A stretch of DNA of 64,000 nt from Ignavibacteriota bacterium (GTDB lineage Bacteria > Bacteroidota > Ignavibacteria > Tepidaquicellales > Tepidaquicellaceae). Below are positions 36,830-44,169 of the stretch, piece by piece. Both the position numbers and the translations under genes were made by a program. Position 1 is the stretch's first letter. Every line of letters starts with the position of its first letter. The DNA is taken from positions 124,001 to 188,000 of the forward strand of contig JAPLFJ010000052.1 in NCBI GenBank assembly GCA_026390735.1, given 5' to 3'. The notes beneath the pieces were generated by a model. That model did not search any database and was not told the DNA's origin. It saw only the letters and a program-made list of their open reading frames with translations.

Positions 36830-37816
36830 ATGCCGATAGACCATAAAAACAGATTTTATGTTGAAGATAATAAAAGCCTCAATAGATTTGTTTCCGGGGT
36901 TATAAAAATCTCAGAAGAGTACATTAGATTCCTGATCTACAGGGGCAGAATTTCAAGTTTGGGAAATTTAAGTCCTTTTGATACCGCAGTTGACCTTTTA
37001 GCAGAACTCTTTAAAGTTGAGAACGGCTGTCTTGTTTATTTCAAACGTCACTTCGAAAAACTCGATACCATACCAGGCTCCGAAGAAGAATACACAAAAG
37101 CACTAAAACAGTTTATCTACAGTGCAACGCTTAACAACCTTACTCATATTTACAAACTTATTGACCCTGTGGCAAACAAGTTGTTAAGAAACCTGAAAGC
37201 TGCTTACAGAGGAGAAAATTACCTGGTAACGGAAATATTCCTGAATAAATATGTACACAAAAAAGATGTAGCTTTCGCATCTAAAGAGTGTATCGACAGG
37301 GACACACTGCTTAACCGGATAATAGCAAAAAACTGGACAGTACAGACTACCGCAAAAGAATTTCTGGCCTGTGTGTTTGACGTATTAGAGTCGCAAGACC
37401 AGTATTTACAGGCGATTTCTCTTAATGACCTCCTGAACATTTATAAAGAACTCTTCGCAATAAAAGGGAAAACAGATTTTATAGGAGAAAAGGTTTCATC
37501 AGATATTCACCATAAATTACTGTTTGAAGAAATAAGAAAAGGGTTTGTTGTAAAACTAAATAATTACCTTGTTAAGAAAAGATTTTCCGAAAAAGAGCGT
37601 AACTGTATCTATAATATAATAGACGATGTAATAAACTGCTACCTTAACGGAACACAGAGAGATTCTGTGAAGGAGCTTGTGAACAGATATTACGGAAAGA
37701 ACGGAACGGATTCAGTATGTTACAGGGCAGAATACGCAATAGGGCTGCTGAACTCTGAAATAATTACATTAATGCAAAAAGAGGAAATGAGAAATGTCGA
37801 AAGACTATCTAAATAA
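36830..37816 (+). CDS. Unknown helical protein, first gene of the Lon-lectin operon
   Basis: 328 residues, cytoplasmic and mostly helical. The segment SPFDTAVDLLAELFKVENG...YFKRHFEKLDT and the following FIYSATLNNLTHIYKLIDP have a weak resemblance to sigma-factor region 2 helices (a helix that would meet RNA polymerase, then a basic LRNLKAAYRG). I see no convincing region 4. It overlaps the next gene by 23 bp, so the products should be made together with the Lon-type protease. No function assigned. Confidence 0.6.
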   Translation: MPIDHKNRFYVEDNKSLNRFVSGVIKISEEYIRFLIYRGRISSLGNLSPFDTAVDLLAELFKVENGCLVYFKRHFEKLDTIPGSEEEYTKALKQFIYSATLNNLTHIYKLIDPVANKLLRNLKAAYRGENYLVTEIFLNKYVHKKDVAFASKECIDRDTLLNRIIAKNWTVQTTAKEFLACVFDVLESQDQYLQAISLNDLLNIYKELFAIKGKTDFIGEKVSSDIHHKLLFEEIRKGFVVKLNNYLVKKRFSEKERNCIYNIIDDVINCYLNGTQRDSVKELVNRYYGKNGTDSVCYRAEYAIGLLNSEIITLMQKEEMRNVERLSK

Positions 37817-38531
37817 AATCATTAACGGCAAAGATAAACTGACCGGGGAACTCGGAAAAGAACAAGAGGCATACCGTGAGTTTATAAGTGGGGGCTGGAA
37901 AAACGAAGAGGAAAACCATACCGGAAAAATAATCACCTTCCTGCCTGAGAATTTTCACGCAGATAAAGTAGCAGAGTCTGGTGCATTAATAGTAAAGATG
38001 GCGGCAGACAGCCGAAATTCGGGAAAGTATAAAAAGGAAACATATTTTTATGTTTCCGAAGACGATACTTTTGCACTTAAAATAGATGAAACAGTAACGG
38101 CAGAGGATTCATCTCTAACGGCAGCTGTAATTTCAGAATCAGAAAGCGATTTAAGCGAATGCGTTCTGTACTGTCCGGAAACAAACAAGTATTTTCTTCG
38201 CAGCCAGGGAAAGGATATTATATTAACAGGATACAAGAATTTTGATTATCAAAGGTTCACGTTTAAATTAATGTATCCGAAGGCAAAAATATTTTTCCTG
38301 ACGCCAAAAGACTCCGACGTATATACTCTTCTTTCCGATGACGCGAGTTTCGCGGTAAACAAGTATGCAATTGAAGATGGAAACATAATAGCGGAACTTG
38401 ATAATTCCGAAAACATAAAGGTTGTAACGCTTAAATCAGAAACGTGTATCGACTTTATAAATATACAGAACGGCAAACTAACTATTCCCTTAATACTCGC
38501 GGGTTCAAAATTTGAACTTCTTATTTATTAA
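37794..38531 (+). CDS. Unknown beta-rich protein, second gene of the Lon-lectin operon
   Basis: 245 residues, no signal peptide or membrane segment. After a charged N-terminus (YLNKIINGKDKLTGELGKEQ) the protein alternates short beta strands throughout (KIITFLPENFHADKV, ESGALIVKMAADS, IILTGYKNFDYQRFTFKLMY). I recognise no family. Its stop shares one base with the start of the protease gene (TAATG), and it overlaps the first gene by 23 bp, which points to stoichiometric expression of all three. Confidence 0.6.
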   Translation: MSKDYLNKIINGKDKLTGELGKEQEAYREFISGGWKNEEENHTGKIITFLPENFHADKVAESGALIVKMAADSRNSGKYKKETYFYVSEDDTFALKIDETVTAEDSSLTAAVISESESDLSECVLYCPETNKYFLRSQGKDIILTGYKNFDYQRFTFKLMYPKAKIFFLTPKDSDVYTLLSDDASFAVNKYAIEDGNIIAELDNSENIKVVTLKSETCIDFINIQNGKLTIPLILAGSKFELLIY

Positions 38532-41500
38532 TGCTAAGCAGAGTAATTTCCTTATACAAGAAGGTTTATTCAGAAATTGAAAGGTCAAGTTCGGGACGAA
38601 GCAGGTTTTACATGATACTGTCATTCTTTACGGAGTGCGAGAAAACATTCCGCTCCACGCCCCCGTTTTCACTCATTAAGGATTTTGTCGCGATATTAAT
38701 TGAGGTTGTTCTGAAGAGCGACATAACCTTTACCGACCCTTCTAAATTAAATGCCACAAAGTTCATACTGAAGGAATCAAAATTTGAATATGCGCCTGCA
38801 AAAGGCGGAGAAATAGTACTATCCCAGATTGATAAGGCAATCGATATTATCAATATGCAAATGCTCAAATCATATTTCTATCTTGGGAAGTATGATGACG
38901 GACTGATTGTTTTAAACAACATGCTTAACGAAAGAGATGCTGCGCAGAGTGCAGACGAGATTGGTGCCGCAGACCATAAGAAGAAAAAAGACGTCCGCAG
39001 TGCAACACCAAACAAATATGCGCTAGTAAATCCTGATATTTTCAAAGAGTCGAGAGCGTATGAAATATTAACCGAAATAAAGAACGAACTCGAAAGACTG
39101 AATTCATACTCCGACGAACATGTTAACATACTGCTTGTAGAACAGGATGGACTTGAAGCCAGCAACTCAAACGGAACGATACAAGGCTTACTCTGCTCAA
39201 CCCTGAAAAAGAAGATAAACGAGGTCAACGTTATATTTGAAAACATTACGGACCTTGAAGATTATTCACTTGAAAATGCGCTGACGGATATTGTAACCGC
39301 TTCAAACCAAATAGTAAATCAGCTTTCTGGGAAAACAGTATCGCAGAACATAAAAAGGAATTTACGTTTTCAGAACATAAAAGTAGTGTACAAGGGTGCA
39401 TCGTTCGGGCTCGGAGCAGCAGTAATCAGCGCCTGTAATTATTTCAAAAACACAAACAGCAGAAGACGTTTTAAAATAAGCAATGCCGTAGCATTTACGG
39501 GGGCGATTGACGGAAAAGGAAAAGTGCTGAAGGTTAACAGCGATTCGATAAATAACAAAATCGAGGCCGCTTTCTTTTCCTGGATTAAGTATTGTGTTGT
39601 GCCAAAAGAAAACCTTGATGATGCAACCAAAGCATATGAGAAACTAAGGGCGCTGTATCCTACAAAGGAAATGAAAATAATATGCGTAGAGAATGCCGGC
39701 GAAGTGTTTGAACACAAAGAATTATTTCTTACGGAAAAGCTGAATTTAAAGAACTATACACAGATTTTGATTAACAAATACAGGTATACAAGCGCCGCGA
39801 TTCTTGTTCTGATTACTTCTGTTCTGGTCTTTGTGATGGCAGCAAAATTTTTACCAAAAGACAAAAAGCCAATGCCAAACATTAGTTCAAAGATGTCGTT
39901 GGTATACACACCAGACAGGAATAATAAGTGGGTGTTTCAGAATGCAGATTATTTTGGGGGTGATACAATAGACTTCGGAGAAGTTGCGGTTGGCGACCAG
40001 TGGCTTCCGATGCTCGAGTTCTGGAACAACAGCCAGAAAGAGGAGTCGTTTGACGTTAAGGTTGAAGGTAATGATGACTTTGAATTATTATGGTTTGACG
40101 AAGAACAGCAACCCTCTTCGCCGGACAAAATTAACCCGTCTTTTCAGCAGCGTCTGAACTTAAAGTTTTCGCCAATGGCAGAAAGTGATTCCATAAGGGC
40201 GCGGGTTATATTCGGCTGTTCTGACAACAAAGAAGAAACAAAAACAATCTTCATTAAGGCTGTTTCGAAGAAGTACGAAGGCGGATACTCCGCTGTTATA
40301 AAAAATGGCGACGACAGAATACTTATTACACCAGGCCGGAATATTTTCCCTAAAGAATTCACAATCAGTTTCTGGTTGAAGCCCGATACAGCGCTTCTGA
40401 ACAATAATGATGATGAAACATATTACAAAGACAAAGGATTTCAGGTGTTAAGAATATCGAACGATAACTCTTCTCTAACAAAATTCGCACTACTGCTTGA
40501 AAGGGACTCAAGTCTGTCGTTTTTCATTAACAACAGAAAAGCAGACTTCAAGAACTTTTTTACAATCAAAGCTGATTCAAAAGTCAGGTTTGGCGAATGG
40601 AACTATGTTTGTATCTCATACGACCTGAATAACGTGTTCCTAACATTAAACGACAAAACAAACAAAGAATACGTAGACAAGGATATTATAAGACAAACAA
40701 ACGACGTGATATTCTTCGGCTCAAGACATCCGGTGTTTGACGACAACAGACACCCTCAGAAAATGAACGGATTTTTTAAGATATTTAATTTTAAGATTTA
40801 CGAAAAATATTTTGACGGCGACAACATTAACAGGTTAAAATATAAATCGCCGGAATGGAACGACGAGGGCATAGTACTGAATTATGAGTTTGACCAGATG
40901 AGCGAAAAGAAGGTTTTTGATTTAAGTAAGTCTGATATATGGGCTATTACTTCGGGCGGAGTAGTAAGGTCACTGGACATACCTGACGGGTTTAAACAGT
41001 CAGAACCTTATTCAAATAAAGAAACGGGAAACGCAGTTCTACACAGAGAAAAAACAGGAAGGATGGAGTTTTACAAGAACATATTTAAGGGGGTAAAGAA
41101 CTTCACAATTCAGATGGATGTAAAGTATGACAACATCGGTGAAAAGAAGCAGGAGTTTTATATAATCCTTAATCCTGAAAAGGAATATTTCTTAAGCATT
41201 AACAAAGACTCCCTGTTTTTGTTTTCGGGTAAATATAAGTCAAAGGAAAAATATCAAAAAAACGGGGAACTAAAATCTGACGGTAAATGGCACAGGTATA
41301 CACTCACCTACGAAGACGGCATAACAAAAGTATACGCAGACAGCACAGAAATAATGAAACTGAATACATCCGGAAAGTCTTTAGATATTGAGAAACTGAA
41401 TTACGGGTTAGTATTCGGGAATGTTGCGTACATTGCATCTGCAAGACATTACGGAGACGCCTGTATGTTCGACAATGTAAGGGTTTACGGCAGGGCAATA

Positions 41501-41653
41501 AACGCCTCAGAAATATACGGTACAAATGGTAATGGGCTTCTTGCAGAATGGACTTTTGATAATATTAAAGGATATTATGCTTACGACAACATAAAAGGGT
41601 ATCCGGCTTTACTAAAAGGTGAGATAAAGATCATTAAAAGGCAGGATAAATAA
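38531..41653 (+). CDS. Membrane protein with Lon-type protease domain and two LamG domains
   Basis: 1040 residues. The N-terminal part (1-~400) is cytoplasmic and ends in a Lon (S16) protease-like domain: KGASFGLGAA with candidate Ser291, AFTGAIDGKGKVLKV, then NNKIEAAF with candidate Lys343, and CVVPKENLDD. Lon enzymes use exactly this Ser-Lys dyad. No AAA+ domain is present. A single membrane helix (~419-438, AAILVLITSVLVFVMAAKF) follows. Outside the membrane come an ASH-like beta domain (~475-580, IDFGEVAVGDQWLPMLEFW) and two concanavalin/LamG-type domains (~595-780, ~835-1020; FTISFWLKPD, WNYVCISYD, WHRYTLTYEDG). A protease inside joined to lectin folds outside is unusual. Confidence 0.82.
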   Translation: MLSRVISLYKKVYSEIERSSSGRSRFYMILSFFTECEKTFRSTPPFSLIKDFVAILIEVVLKSDITFTDPSKLNATKFILKESKFEYAPAKGGEIVLSQIDKAIDIINMQMLKSYFYLGKYDDGLIVLNNMLNERDAAQSADEIGAADHKKKKDVRSATPNKYALVNPDIFKESRAYEILTEIKNELERLNSYSDEHVNILLVEQDGLEASNSNGTIQGLLCSTLKKKINEVNVIFENITDLEDYSLENALTDIVTASNQIVNQLSGKTVSQNIKRNLRFQNIKVVYKGASFGLGAAVISACNYFKNTNSRRRFKISNAVAFTGAIDGKGKVLKVNSDSINNKIEAAFFSWIKYCVVPKENLDDATKAYEKLRALYPTKEMKIICVENAGEVFEHKELFLTEKLNLKNYTQILINKYRYTSAAILVLITSVLVFVMAAKFLPKDKKPMPNISSKMSLVYTPDRNNKWVFQNADYFGGDTIDFGEVAVGDQWLPMLEFWNNSQKEESFDVKVEGNDDFELLWFDEEQQPSSPDKINPSFQQRLNLKFSPMAESDSIRARVIFGCSDNKEETKTIFIKAVSKKYEGGYSAVIKNGDDRILITPGRNIFPKEFTISFWLKPDTALLNNNDDETYYKDKGFQVLRISNDNSSLTKFALLLERDSSLSFFINNRKADFKNFFTIKADSKVRFGEWNYVCISYDLNNVFLTLNDKTNKEYVDKDIIRQTNDVIFFGSRHPVFDDNRHPQKMNGFFKIFNFKIYEKYFDGDNINRLKYKSPEWNDEGIVLNYEFDQMSEKKVFDLSKSDIWAITSGGVVRSLDIPDGFKQSEPYSNKETGNAVLHREKTGRMEFYKNIFKGVKNFTIQMDVKYDNIGEKKQEFYIILNPEKEYFLSINKDSLFLFSGKYKSKEKYQKNGELKSDGKWHRYTLTYEDGITKVYADSTEIMKLNTSGKSLDIEKLNYGLVFGNVAYIASARHYGDACMFDNVRVYGRAINASEIYGTNGNGLLAEWTFDNIKGYYAYDNIKGYPALLKGEIKIIKRQDK

Positions 41654-42561: not shown

Positions 42562-42579
42562 ACATTGAAAGGAAAATAT

Positions 42580-44169
42580 TTGAAAAAAATTGCGCTTGTA
42601 TTATTATTGCTGATTTCGTTTGCAACATCCTATGCACAGTATGAGACTCTTACACCGGAAAGAAAAGACGACGACCTTAATGCTGAGCAGATAATAGAGC
42701 AGAATAAATCGGCACTGGTATCTGTCTGGTACCATACGGACAGTTATTATGGTTACTATTATTTATCAACACCAAAAGATACAACACTTTTAAGCGGAAG
42801 CGGGTTTATATTCGACTCACGCGGATTCGTCGGAACAAACTATCACGTGATTGACGGGTTTGACAGCCTGATGATTAAAACATCTGACGGCAGTTTTTAC
42901 AATGCAGAGTTAATCTTTGTAGACGAGAAAAATGACATAGCAATATTAAGAATTATAAACTCGGGCAACATTGTTTTCCCTGCTGCGAAAATAGGAAACT
43001 CGGATTTACCGAGAGTGGGACAGAATGTTTATGCGATTGGTTCGCCGCTTGGGTTTGAATATACTATTTCAGAAGGTATTATTGCGGCGCTCAGAGAAAA
43101 CGAGAAAGTGTCGTTTAACGACCCTGCAACATATGCGTTGATAGAAAAAACATTTGACAAGGTAATACAAATAACTGCGGCTATATCTCCGGGTAACAGC
43201 GGCGGCGCCCTGTTTAATGGCAAAGGCGAAGTAATAGGCATTACAACTTATTCATATGGTTTTTACGGAAATTTAAATTTTGCGATTGCGATAAACAGTT
43301 TTTCAAAACTGCGCAATACGATTGATTTTGCAACGCTCGATAAAGACGAAGAATTTCTTGCAAAAAAGAAGGGTAACCTTTTTAAGACAAATTTCCGTCT
43401 GGCAGAATCCTTTAAAACAAAACTTGTATCAAGCTGGTATTATTCAAAACAGCGCGACACGATGAAGGTATATGACACGATGATTGTGAAACAGGATTCT
43501 CTGAATAAAATTAATTTTGTTAAAGCGGAAAATTACTATAATATGTGCATAGAAATGCAGCCCGATACTTTTTATATTTATCAGGGTTTGATGGATATGT
43601 ATATTTACACAGAAAACTTTAACAAAGCAGAACCCTTGTATGGGACGATAAAGGAAAAGTTTACGTCGGACAGCTTGTTAAACACTTTTTCCTCGTCTCT
43701 TGCGATGGCATATTCTACCTCAAAGGATTATAAGAAAGCGTTAATGTTCTATGAAAAGCTTCAGAAGAAAGATACGAACGATGTTTACGTCTTATACCAG
43801 ATGGCAGACCTTTACGGCAAGCAAAAGGACATAAAAAAGTCTGAAGAAGTATACAAAAAAATTATTAAGATAGACCCAGCTTACATAATGGGTTATATAC
43901 AGCTTGGAAAGTTATACTACGAGCAAAAGGATTATAAGTCGGCGAAGAAGTATCTCAATATGGCAGTAGAGAAAACGATGATGGAAGAATATTCTTACGG
44001 TAACTATCTTGATTTACATTATTACCGCGGGATGATAGCGGTGGCAGAGGGAAGGAAGCTGGATGCACTGATGTGTTACATAGATATAAAAAGTACCTAC
44101 ACTTACACAAAGGAAGAAAACGAGAAAAAGTTAGGGCTTTATAAAGCAATTAAAAAAATGGAAGAATAA
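42580..44169 (+). CDS. HtrA-like (S1C) secreted serine protease with C-terminal TPRs
   Basis: About 529 residues from TTG 42580, chosen because AAAGGA at 42568-42573 lies 6 nt upstream; an earlier in-frame TTG at 42565 is possible. Signal peptide ends near SYAQ. The trypsin-like domain has His89 (TNYHVID), Asp119 (KNDIAILRI) and Ser207 (SPGNSGGAL). Instead of the usual PDZ domains, the C-terminal half has TPR-like repeats (KAENYYNMCIEMQPDTFYIY, YTENFNKAEPLYGTI, YKKALMFYEKLQKK, IKKSEEVYKKIIKIDP, YKSAKKYLNMAV). It probably works in envelope protein quality control, with TPRs choosing partners. Confidence 0.88.
   Translation: MKKIALVLLLLISFATSYAQYETLTPERKDDDLNAEQIIEQNKSALVSVWYHTDSYYGYYYLSTPKDTTLLSGSGFIFDSRGFVGTNYHVIDGFDSLMIKTSDGSFYNAELIFVDEKNDIAILRIINSGNIVFPAAKIGNSDLPRVGQNVYAIGSPLGFEYTISEGIIAALRENEKVSFNDPATYALIEKTFDKVIQITAAISPGNSGGALFNGKGEVIGITTYSYGFYGNLNFAIAINSFSKLRNTIDFATLDKDEEFLAKKKGNLFKTNFRLAESFKTKLVSSWYYSKQRDTMKVYDTMIVKQDSLNKINFVKAENYYNMCIEMQPDTFYIYQGLMDMYIYTENFNKAEPLYGTIKEKFTSDSLLNTFSSSLAMAYSTSKDYKKALMFYEKLQKKDTNDVYVLYQMADLYGKQKDIKKSEEVYKKIIKIDPAYIMGYIQLGKLYYEQKDYKSAKKYLNMAVEKTMMEEYSYGNYLDLHYYRGMIAVAEGRKLDALMCYIDIKSTYTYTKEENEKKLGLYKAIKKMEE

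Follow-up and report, generated by a model that had tools for sequence, protein, structure and literature searches.

Three genes, designated here A, B and C, follow one another on the forward strand of the window (the whole stretch of 64,000 nucleotides that was analysed), with an overlap of 23 bp between A and B and of 1 bp between B and C, a tight arrangement already described in an earlier reading of this DNA from its letters alone (hereafter the sequence-only reading). Scans for promoters and terminators stood at chance level, and a search of the window's own genome with full-length C returned the window itself as the only match. No description of the A-B-C trio was found in the literature, in a search limited to openly licensed papers. 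Just 3′ of the trio, past an enoyl-CoA hydratase gene, lies the gene of a DegP-like trypsin-fold protease with TPR repeats (42565-44169, + strand), which shows no sign of belonging to it. The genes and their features are listed below by position in the window.

36830-37816, + strand: gene A, 328 aa, putative sigma-like output protein
36830-37216, + strand: A residues 1-129, N-terminal helical domain, predicted to be sigma region 2-like (AlphaFold2 and VIA-align)
37490-37813, + strand: A residues 221-328, C-terminal helical domain in the position of sigma region 4 (predicted secondary structure)
37794-38531, + strand: gene B, 245 aa, soluble, putative anti-sigma protein
37998-38006, + strand: MAA, B residues 69-71, an [LIMF]AA motif in the linker and candidate site of cleavage or docking by C
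38531-41653, + strand: gene C, 1040 aa, predicted transmembrane Lon-type protease with ASH-like and LamG domains outside
39113-39715, + strand: C residues 195-395, Lon (S16) protease domain (profile and PDB matches)
39401-39403, + strand: codon of Ser291, putative catalytic serine (invariance; aligned to the LonB serine)
39557-39559, + strand: codon of Lys343, putative catalytic lysine (invariance; aligned to the LonB lysine)
39788-39844, + strand: C residues 420-438, single TM helix (hydropathy and positive-inside count in 27 homologues)
39965-40246, + strand: C residues 479-572, ASH/Cep192_D4-like domain (Pfam E=8.2e-4, below the curated cut-off)
40481-40774, + strand: C residues 651-748, first LamG-type domain (Pfam Laminin_G_2, 2.6e-8)
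41081-41515, + strand: C residues 851-995, second LamG-type domain (Pfam Laminin_G_3, 3.6e-18)

Protein C contains a protease domain of the Lon type, as the sequence-only reading had supposed. The NCBIfam family TIGR00764 (LonB) matches residues 284-396 with E=1.6e-7, the Archaeoglobus LonB structures 1z0c and 1z0b match at about 1e-5, their dyad positions being aligned to Ser291 and Lys343, and Pfam Lon_C scores 21.2 bits for a cut-off of 21.1, a match that is borderline taken alone. When a profile of C is used, residues 228-377 match 1z0c and residues 193-376 match 8dvh, the nearest solved structures being those of LonB. Outside the S16 region, no Pfam or NCBIfam match to an AAA+ or AAA-like module was found, in keeping with the lack of a motor noted earlier. 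The two residues previously put forward as a candidate dyad proved to be invariant: Ser291 is conserved in 30/30 distinct homologues, Lys343 in 31/31, and both are kept in C proteins from other families of the phylum (3/3 each), which brings the totals to 33/33 and 34/34. Across 19 aligned C proteins that share 14-39% identity with that of the window, Ser291, Gly330, Lys343 and Ser350 are invariant. Such conservation of the Ser/Lys dyad fits an active enzyme, without proving activity. The motif surrounding the serine, YKGxS[FL]G, differs from the consensus of both LonA and LonB.

The remainder of C matches the architecture first proposed, with one membrane helix, an ASH-like domain and two LamG domains. 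Lys and Arg residues flanking the TM helix average 4.3 on its N side versus 1.8 on its C side, with an excess on the N side in 25/27 homologues; following the positive-inside rule, the Lon domain is thus predicted to be cytoplasmic and the LamG or FG-GAP-like part to be outside. The ASH/Cep192_D4-like match recurs in 6/19 C homologues, and many homologues display an FG-GAP-like propeller in place of LamG. On this ground, carbohydrate binding by LamG was rejected as the defining sensor. In other words, the earlier idea of a transmembrane sensor-protease stands as far as its topology is concerned (protease inside, sensor region outside), and its carbohydrate-binding part is not a general rule.

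Among known proteins, C resembles YlbL of Bacillus subtilis in combining a single TM helix with a motor-less Lon-type Ser-Lys domain (PMC6051672). Unlike in YlbL, where the Lon domain is likely extracellular and a PDZ domain is present (PMC6051672), the Lon domain of C precedes the TM helix in the chain and is on the predicted cytoplasmic side, with LamG or FG-GAP outside. An S16 proteolytic domain is also shared with archaeal LonB and with LonC, which is soluble and works without ATP (PMC3391209), whereas the lack of a detectable AAA+ or AAA-like module sets C apart from LonA, LonB and LonC alike.

Relatives of C were found by single-sequence search in 22/59 near genomes, and its profile has matches in 79/294 genomes of the class, a count that includes matches to the outside domain alone; the named genomes scanned with the single C protein gave no match. 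The profile of A has matches in 108/294 genomes of the class. Named relatives of A come from Ignavibacteria and from related Bacteroidota/Chlorobi MAGs; outliers belong to Rhodothermaceae, KSB1 and Calditrichota. Gene maps place B directly after A almost everywhere, and always so in A-B-C trios. Conservation and adjacency of the three genes in other genomes, a point raised with the sequence-only reading, were found at 21 A-B-C loci in the census and at three more in other families of the phylum. None of the three refuting conditions named with that reading (lack of an S16 match, of the Ser/Lys pair or of a conserved order) was borne out.

Two forms of the system can be distinguished. Form 1 consists of A and a membrane-bound B (an HHCC anti-sigma-type zinc head, one TM helix and an FG-GAP-like sensor outside), without Lon; its B is about 470 aa long, with a short head, a TM helix at about residues 105-130 and an outside domain that is also recognised by the C profile. 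Form 2, to which the window belongs, consists of A, a soluble B and C, with the sensor on the Lon-TM protein. The census covers 76 A genes having a next gene, 21 of the Lon form and 55 others. It was found that B has a TM helix at 0/21 Lon-form loci versus 38/55 of the others, and that the outside domain known from C is present in 37/55 non-Lon next genes. According to this census, C takes over from B both the membrane anchor and the sensor.

Departures from the standard layout were also recorded. Where a soluble B has no adjoining C, six of the genomes searched (G195, G148, G213, G259, G184 and G116) have C elsewhere; in the KSB1 and Calditrichota genomes of this kind, no C was found anywhere in the genome, and there (L188:7968-11746 and L189:7628-11876) the gene after A encodes a protein with an HxxxCxxC head, beyond which come response-regulator-type genes. 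In a genome of the same genus (L049:306-7836), the A-B pair is separated from C by about 2.7 kb and the two are oppositely oriented, which amounts to a locally rearranged trio, and a second, intact trio (L050) is present in that genome. In a genome of the same family (L054:17-2942, - strand), C has many stop codons and is a pseudogene or decayed copy; an intact C paralogue of the 700-aa type (L055) accompanies it in that genome. The order C-A-B at L146:4099-7975 (+ strand) indicates that gene order is not strictly fixed.

Neither A nor B of the window has a meaningful match to Pfam, NCBIfam or PADLOC families, as had been surmised; the case for B as an anti-sigma protein is drawn from its relatives. 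The head of form-1 B reads M-x-H-(I/V)-D-x-x-x-L-E-x-y...H-L-x-x-C-x-x-C. The HxxxCxxC motif occurs in 51/76 genes next to A (chance, 0.0006 per shuffled N-terminus), and 37/41 membrane-type B proteins have an extra His 23-27 residues upstream of it. The HHCC zinc anti-sigma (ZAS) domain is defined by HxxxCxxC with a His or Cys 23-26 residues upstream (PMC4960319), and form-1 B, having this motif and the upstream His, falls under that definition. Pfam zf-HC2 aligns weakly with some form-1 B proteins in the right place, with E-values of 0.015 to 0.2, all below the cut-off, and does not match window B; it has no match at E<=0.05 in the window's genome, so no canonical ZAS control is available from the same genome. 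The relationship extends to the Lon form, since several B proteins of the Lon form are among the matches of a profile of HHCC heads (4.6e-15, 1.7e-14 and 2.1e-11). The HxxxCxxC motif itself is missing in 11/21 Lon-form B proteins and in window B, and the zinc ligands have been lost from the head in the subfamily to which the latter belongs. Approximately 44% of class I anti-sigma domains are without zinc ligands (PMC7406223), and an anti-sigma role may therefore still be held by window B, although the loss is a weak point nonetheless. Protein B is considered here a putative anti-sigma protein that would bind and inhibit A.

Between its head and its beta-rich domain, B carries a short motif, [LIMF]AA, that accompanies the Lon form. 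It is found in 21/21 Lon-form B proteins (20 fit [LMIV]AA and one is FAA), in window B (MAA) and in three B proteins from other families of the phylum (LAA, LAA and MAA), and both A70 and A71 are invariant in an alignment of 16 B proteins. By comparison, [LMIV]AA occurs in 11% of shuffled segments. Among membrane-type B proteins, [LMIV]AA occurs in 11/41, of which ten cases were judged to coincide with or adjoin the predicted TM helix, and the other (L184) to belong to an unrelated protein; counted in this way, the linker motif is associated with the Lon form in 21/22 versus 0/41 cases (Fisher p about 8e-16, a value that kinship makes only a guide). Judged from these sequence patterns, [LIMF]AA is likely a recognition, docking or cleavage site for C; it could instead be structural, at the start of the beta domain of B. 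The same data bear on the substrate of the protease, for which A had originally been suggested. That candidate was rejected, since it is B that has the cleavage-like motif and co-varies with the protease. With the anti-sigma zinc head of its relatives and a motif present only when the Lon protein is, B is the better candidate, and A is more likely the output.

The nature of A has been approached by sequence and by structure. At the sequence level, a search against the PDB was negative in addition to those already mentioned, Pfam gave no match with 18 members of the family, and there is a match to the PHROG family phrog_37003 (6.5e-5), of unknown function. An hhalign comparison of A with seven sigma factors of the same genome gave a probability of 0.15%, and a test with sigma region-2 profiles did no better than shuffled columns. 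At the structural level, AlphaFold2 models were obtained for full-length A (mean pLDDT 85.4, from a 29-sequence alignment) and for the N-domain alone (pLDDT 87.6). With residues 1-111 of the full-length model, the VIA-align rows are sigma factors (RpoD, WhiG, FliA, sigma-S and others) with Z of about 5-6, and with the N-domain alone the top three rows are the sigma factors 9isn, 6pfv and 4lup (Z of 6.7, 5.6 and 5.5, respectively), just above unrelated proteins at Z 5.0; the tool flags Z values of 5-7 as below the reliable level and as perhaps reflecting just a common helical arrangement. Foldseek found no significant match in the PDB for either the full-length protein or the N-domain, and the C-terminal domain (221-328) has only non-specific helical matches. 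One helix of A carries the motif D51-x3-D55-x2-A58-x-L60-F61, which by eye resembles the region-2 motif D-L-x-Q-E-x4-L-W, a lead only.

Variation in the length of A adds to this picture. Short A proteins of 229-245 aa, devoid of the C-terminal domain, are found at L053, L055, L061, L062, L063, L066 and L069, a branch that always goes with a 700-aa FG-GAP-type C; having no seat for sigma region 4, they count against the sigma reading. Long frames of up to 759 aa round some A genes were dismissed as over-long start choices rather than fusions. The exception is L134:5005-6510 (+ strand), where the A domain is located behind a CheY-like receiver (501 aa) and is followed by a soluble B-like protein. 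Fusion to a receiver is as expected of an output domain, and suggests that the output of A can also be wired to a phosphorelay. As to the weak sigma-like helices initially noticed in A, the modelled N-domain weakly resembles sigma region 2, and sequence-profile comparison with sigma factors is negative. On this evidence, A is regarded with moderate confidence as sigma-like, and is not filed as a member of the sigma-70 family.

The reading preferred here, with a probability of about 0.58, is that the trio comprises a sigma-like factor (A), a soluble anti-sigma protein (B) and a transmembrane Lon receptor (C) that cleaves B. The outside domains of C would sense a surface or extracellular signal or ligand and thereby control cutting; the cytoplasmic Lon domain, with Ser291 and Lys343, would then cleave B at the [LIMF]AA linker or close to it; once B is cut, its anti-sigma head would lose its hold on A; and the freed A would act at promoters and direct transcription. 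Soluble B and C would in this way replace the commoner form, in which the anti-sigma head, the TM helix and the sensor reside in one protein. Of these elements, the linkage of the genes, the Lon domain with its invariant dyad, the topology, the exchange of a membrane B for a soluble B with C, and the pairing of the AA motif with C are computational results, whereas the sigma-like nature of A, its inhibition by B, the cutting of B by C and control by the outside domains are inferences.

By analogy, the trio would work like regulated anti-sigma proteolysis as known for RseA, RsiW and RsgI. It shares with the ZAS and class I anti-sigma proteins that act with ECF sigma factors (RsrA, ChrR and RsiW) the succession of a small cytoplasmic partner gene and a gene for an HHCC-head protein, either soluble or membrane-bound, and for the ZAS protein RsiW release of the partner by proteolysis, the idea proposed here, is known. 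Differences from ZAS systems are that the partner A has no detectable ECF similarity, that window B lacks zinc ligands and that a Lon-type receptor protease belongs to the same unit. In the RseA/DegS/RseP and RsiW/PrsW systems, a membrane anti-sigma protein is acted on in a cascade by proteases of the periplasm, of the membrane interior and of the AAA+ type, whereas in the trio the putative anti-sigma protein is soluble and a single transmembrane protein would serve at once as sensor and as cytoplasmic protease. The SigI/RsgI pairs of Clostridium thermocellum likewise have outside carbohydrate-binding or lectin-like domains that feed a sigma/anti-sigma switch via proteolysis (PMC12203970); unlike in the trio, RsgI is described as itself the membrane anti-sigma protein, cut by RseP and cytoplasmic proteases, with no Lon-domain receptor.

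The circuit could be the same with A as some other effector (an enzyme, or a regulator that binds DNA or RNA), held by a protein resembling zinc anti-sigmas and released by C. Sequence similarity to no sigma profile, weak fold scores and short forms without the second domain would all suit such an effector, whereas HHCC heads encoded 3′ of a small cytoplasmic protein are a hallmark of ECF sigma partners (PMC4960319, PMC7406223) and sigma region 2 of several sigma families heads the N-domain rows of both independent models; a non-sigma A is regarded as rather unlikely. As for C, it may cut only itself, or its Lon domain may be a scaffold that passes the signal to B by conformation. There is no AAA+ motor for feeding a substrate, the related membrane Lon-domain protein YlbL was inactive on its substrate in vitro (PMC6051672), and the AA motif might serve for docking; yet the Ser and Lys are invariant despite identity down to 14%, as expected for catalysis, LonC, which has no AAA+ motor, cleaves unfolded peptides with no need of ATP (PMC3391209), and [LIMF]AA sits in a predicted linker of B. 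The probability assigned to such self-cutting or scaffolding is low.

Proteases encoded with unknown partners are common in anti-phage and conflict systems. In a system of this kind, C would be a membrane-anchored toxic protease and A and B would regulate or feed it, and the patchy presence seen in the class would be in agreement. Against this, no PADLOC match and no mobile-element or defence neighbourhood were seen, and form 1 has the same A/B pair but a sensor propeller in place of the protease, so that a role in conflict appears very improbable.

The reading of the trio as a sigma-like factor under a soluble anti-sigma protein and a Lon receptor also has a wider version, which is put forward tentatively and at somewhat less than even odds. 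The A proteins may be a family of initiation factors too diverged from sigma-70 for detection by sequence, paired with zinc anti-sigmas, and one branch of this family may be under a new class of receptor, a single-pass protein whose motor-less cytoplasmic Lon domain would cut a soluble anti-sigma protein site-specifically in direct response to an outside signal. If this is true, Ignavibacteria and their neighbours would possess a large family of sigma-like regulators that sigma sequence searches have missed.
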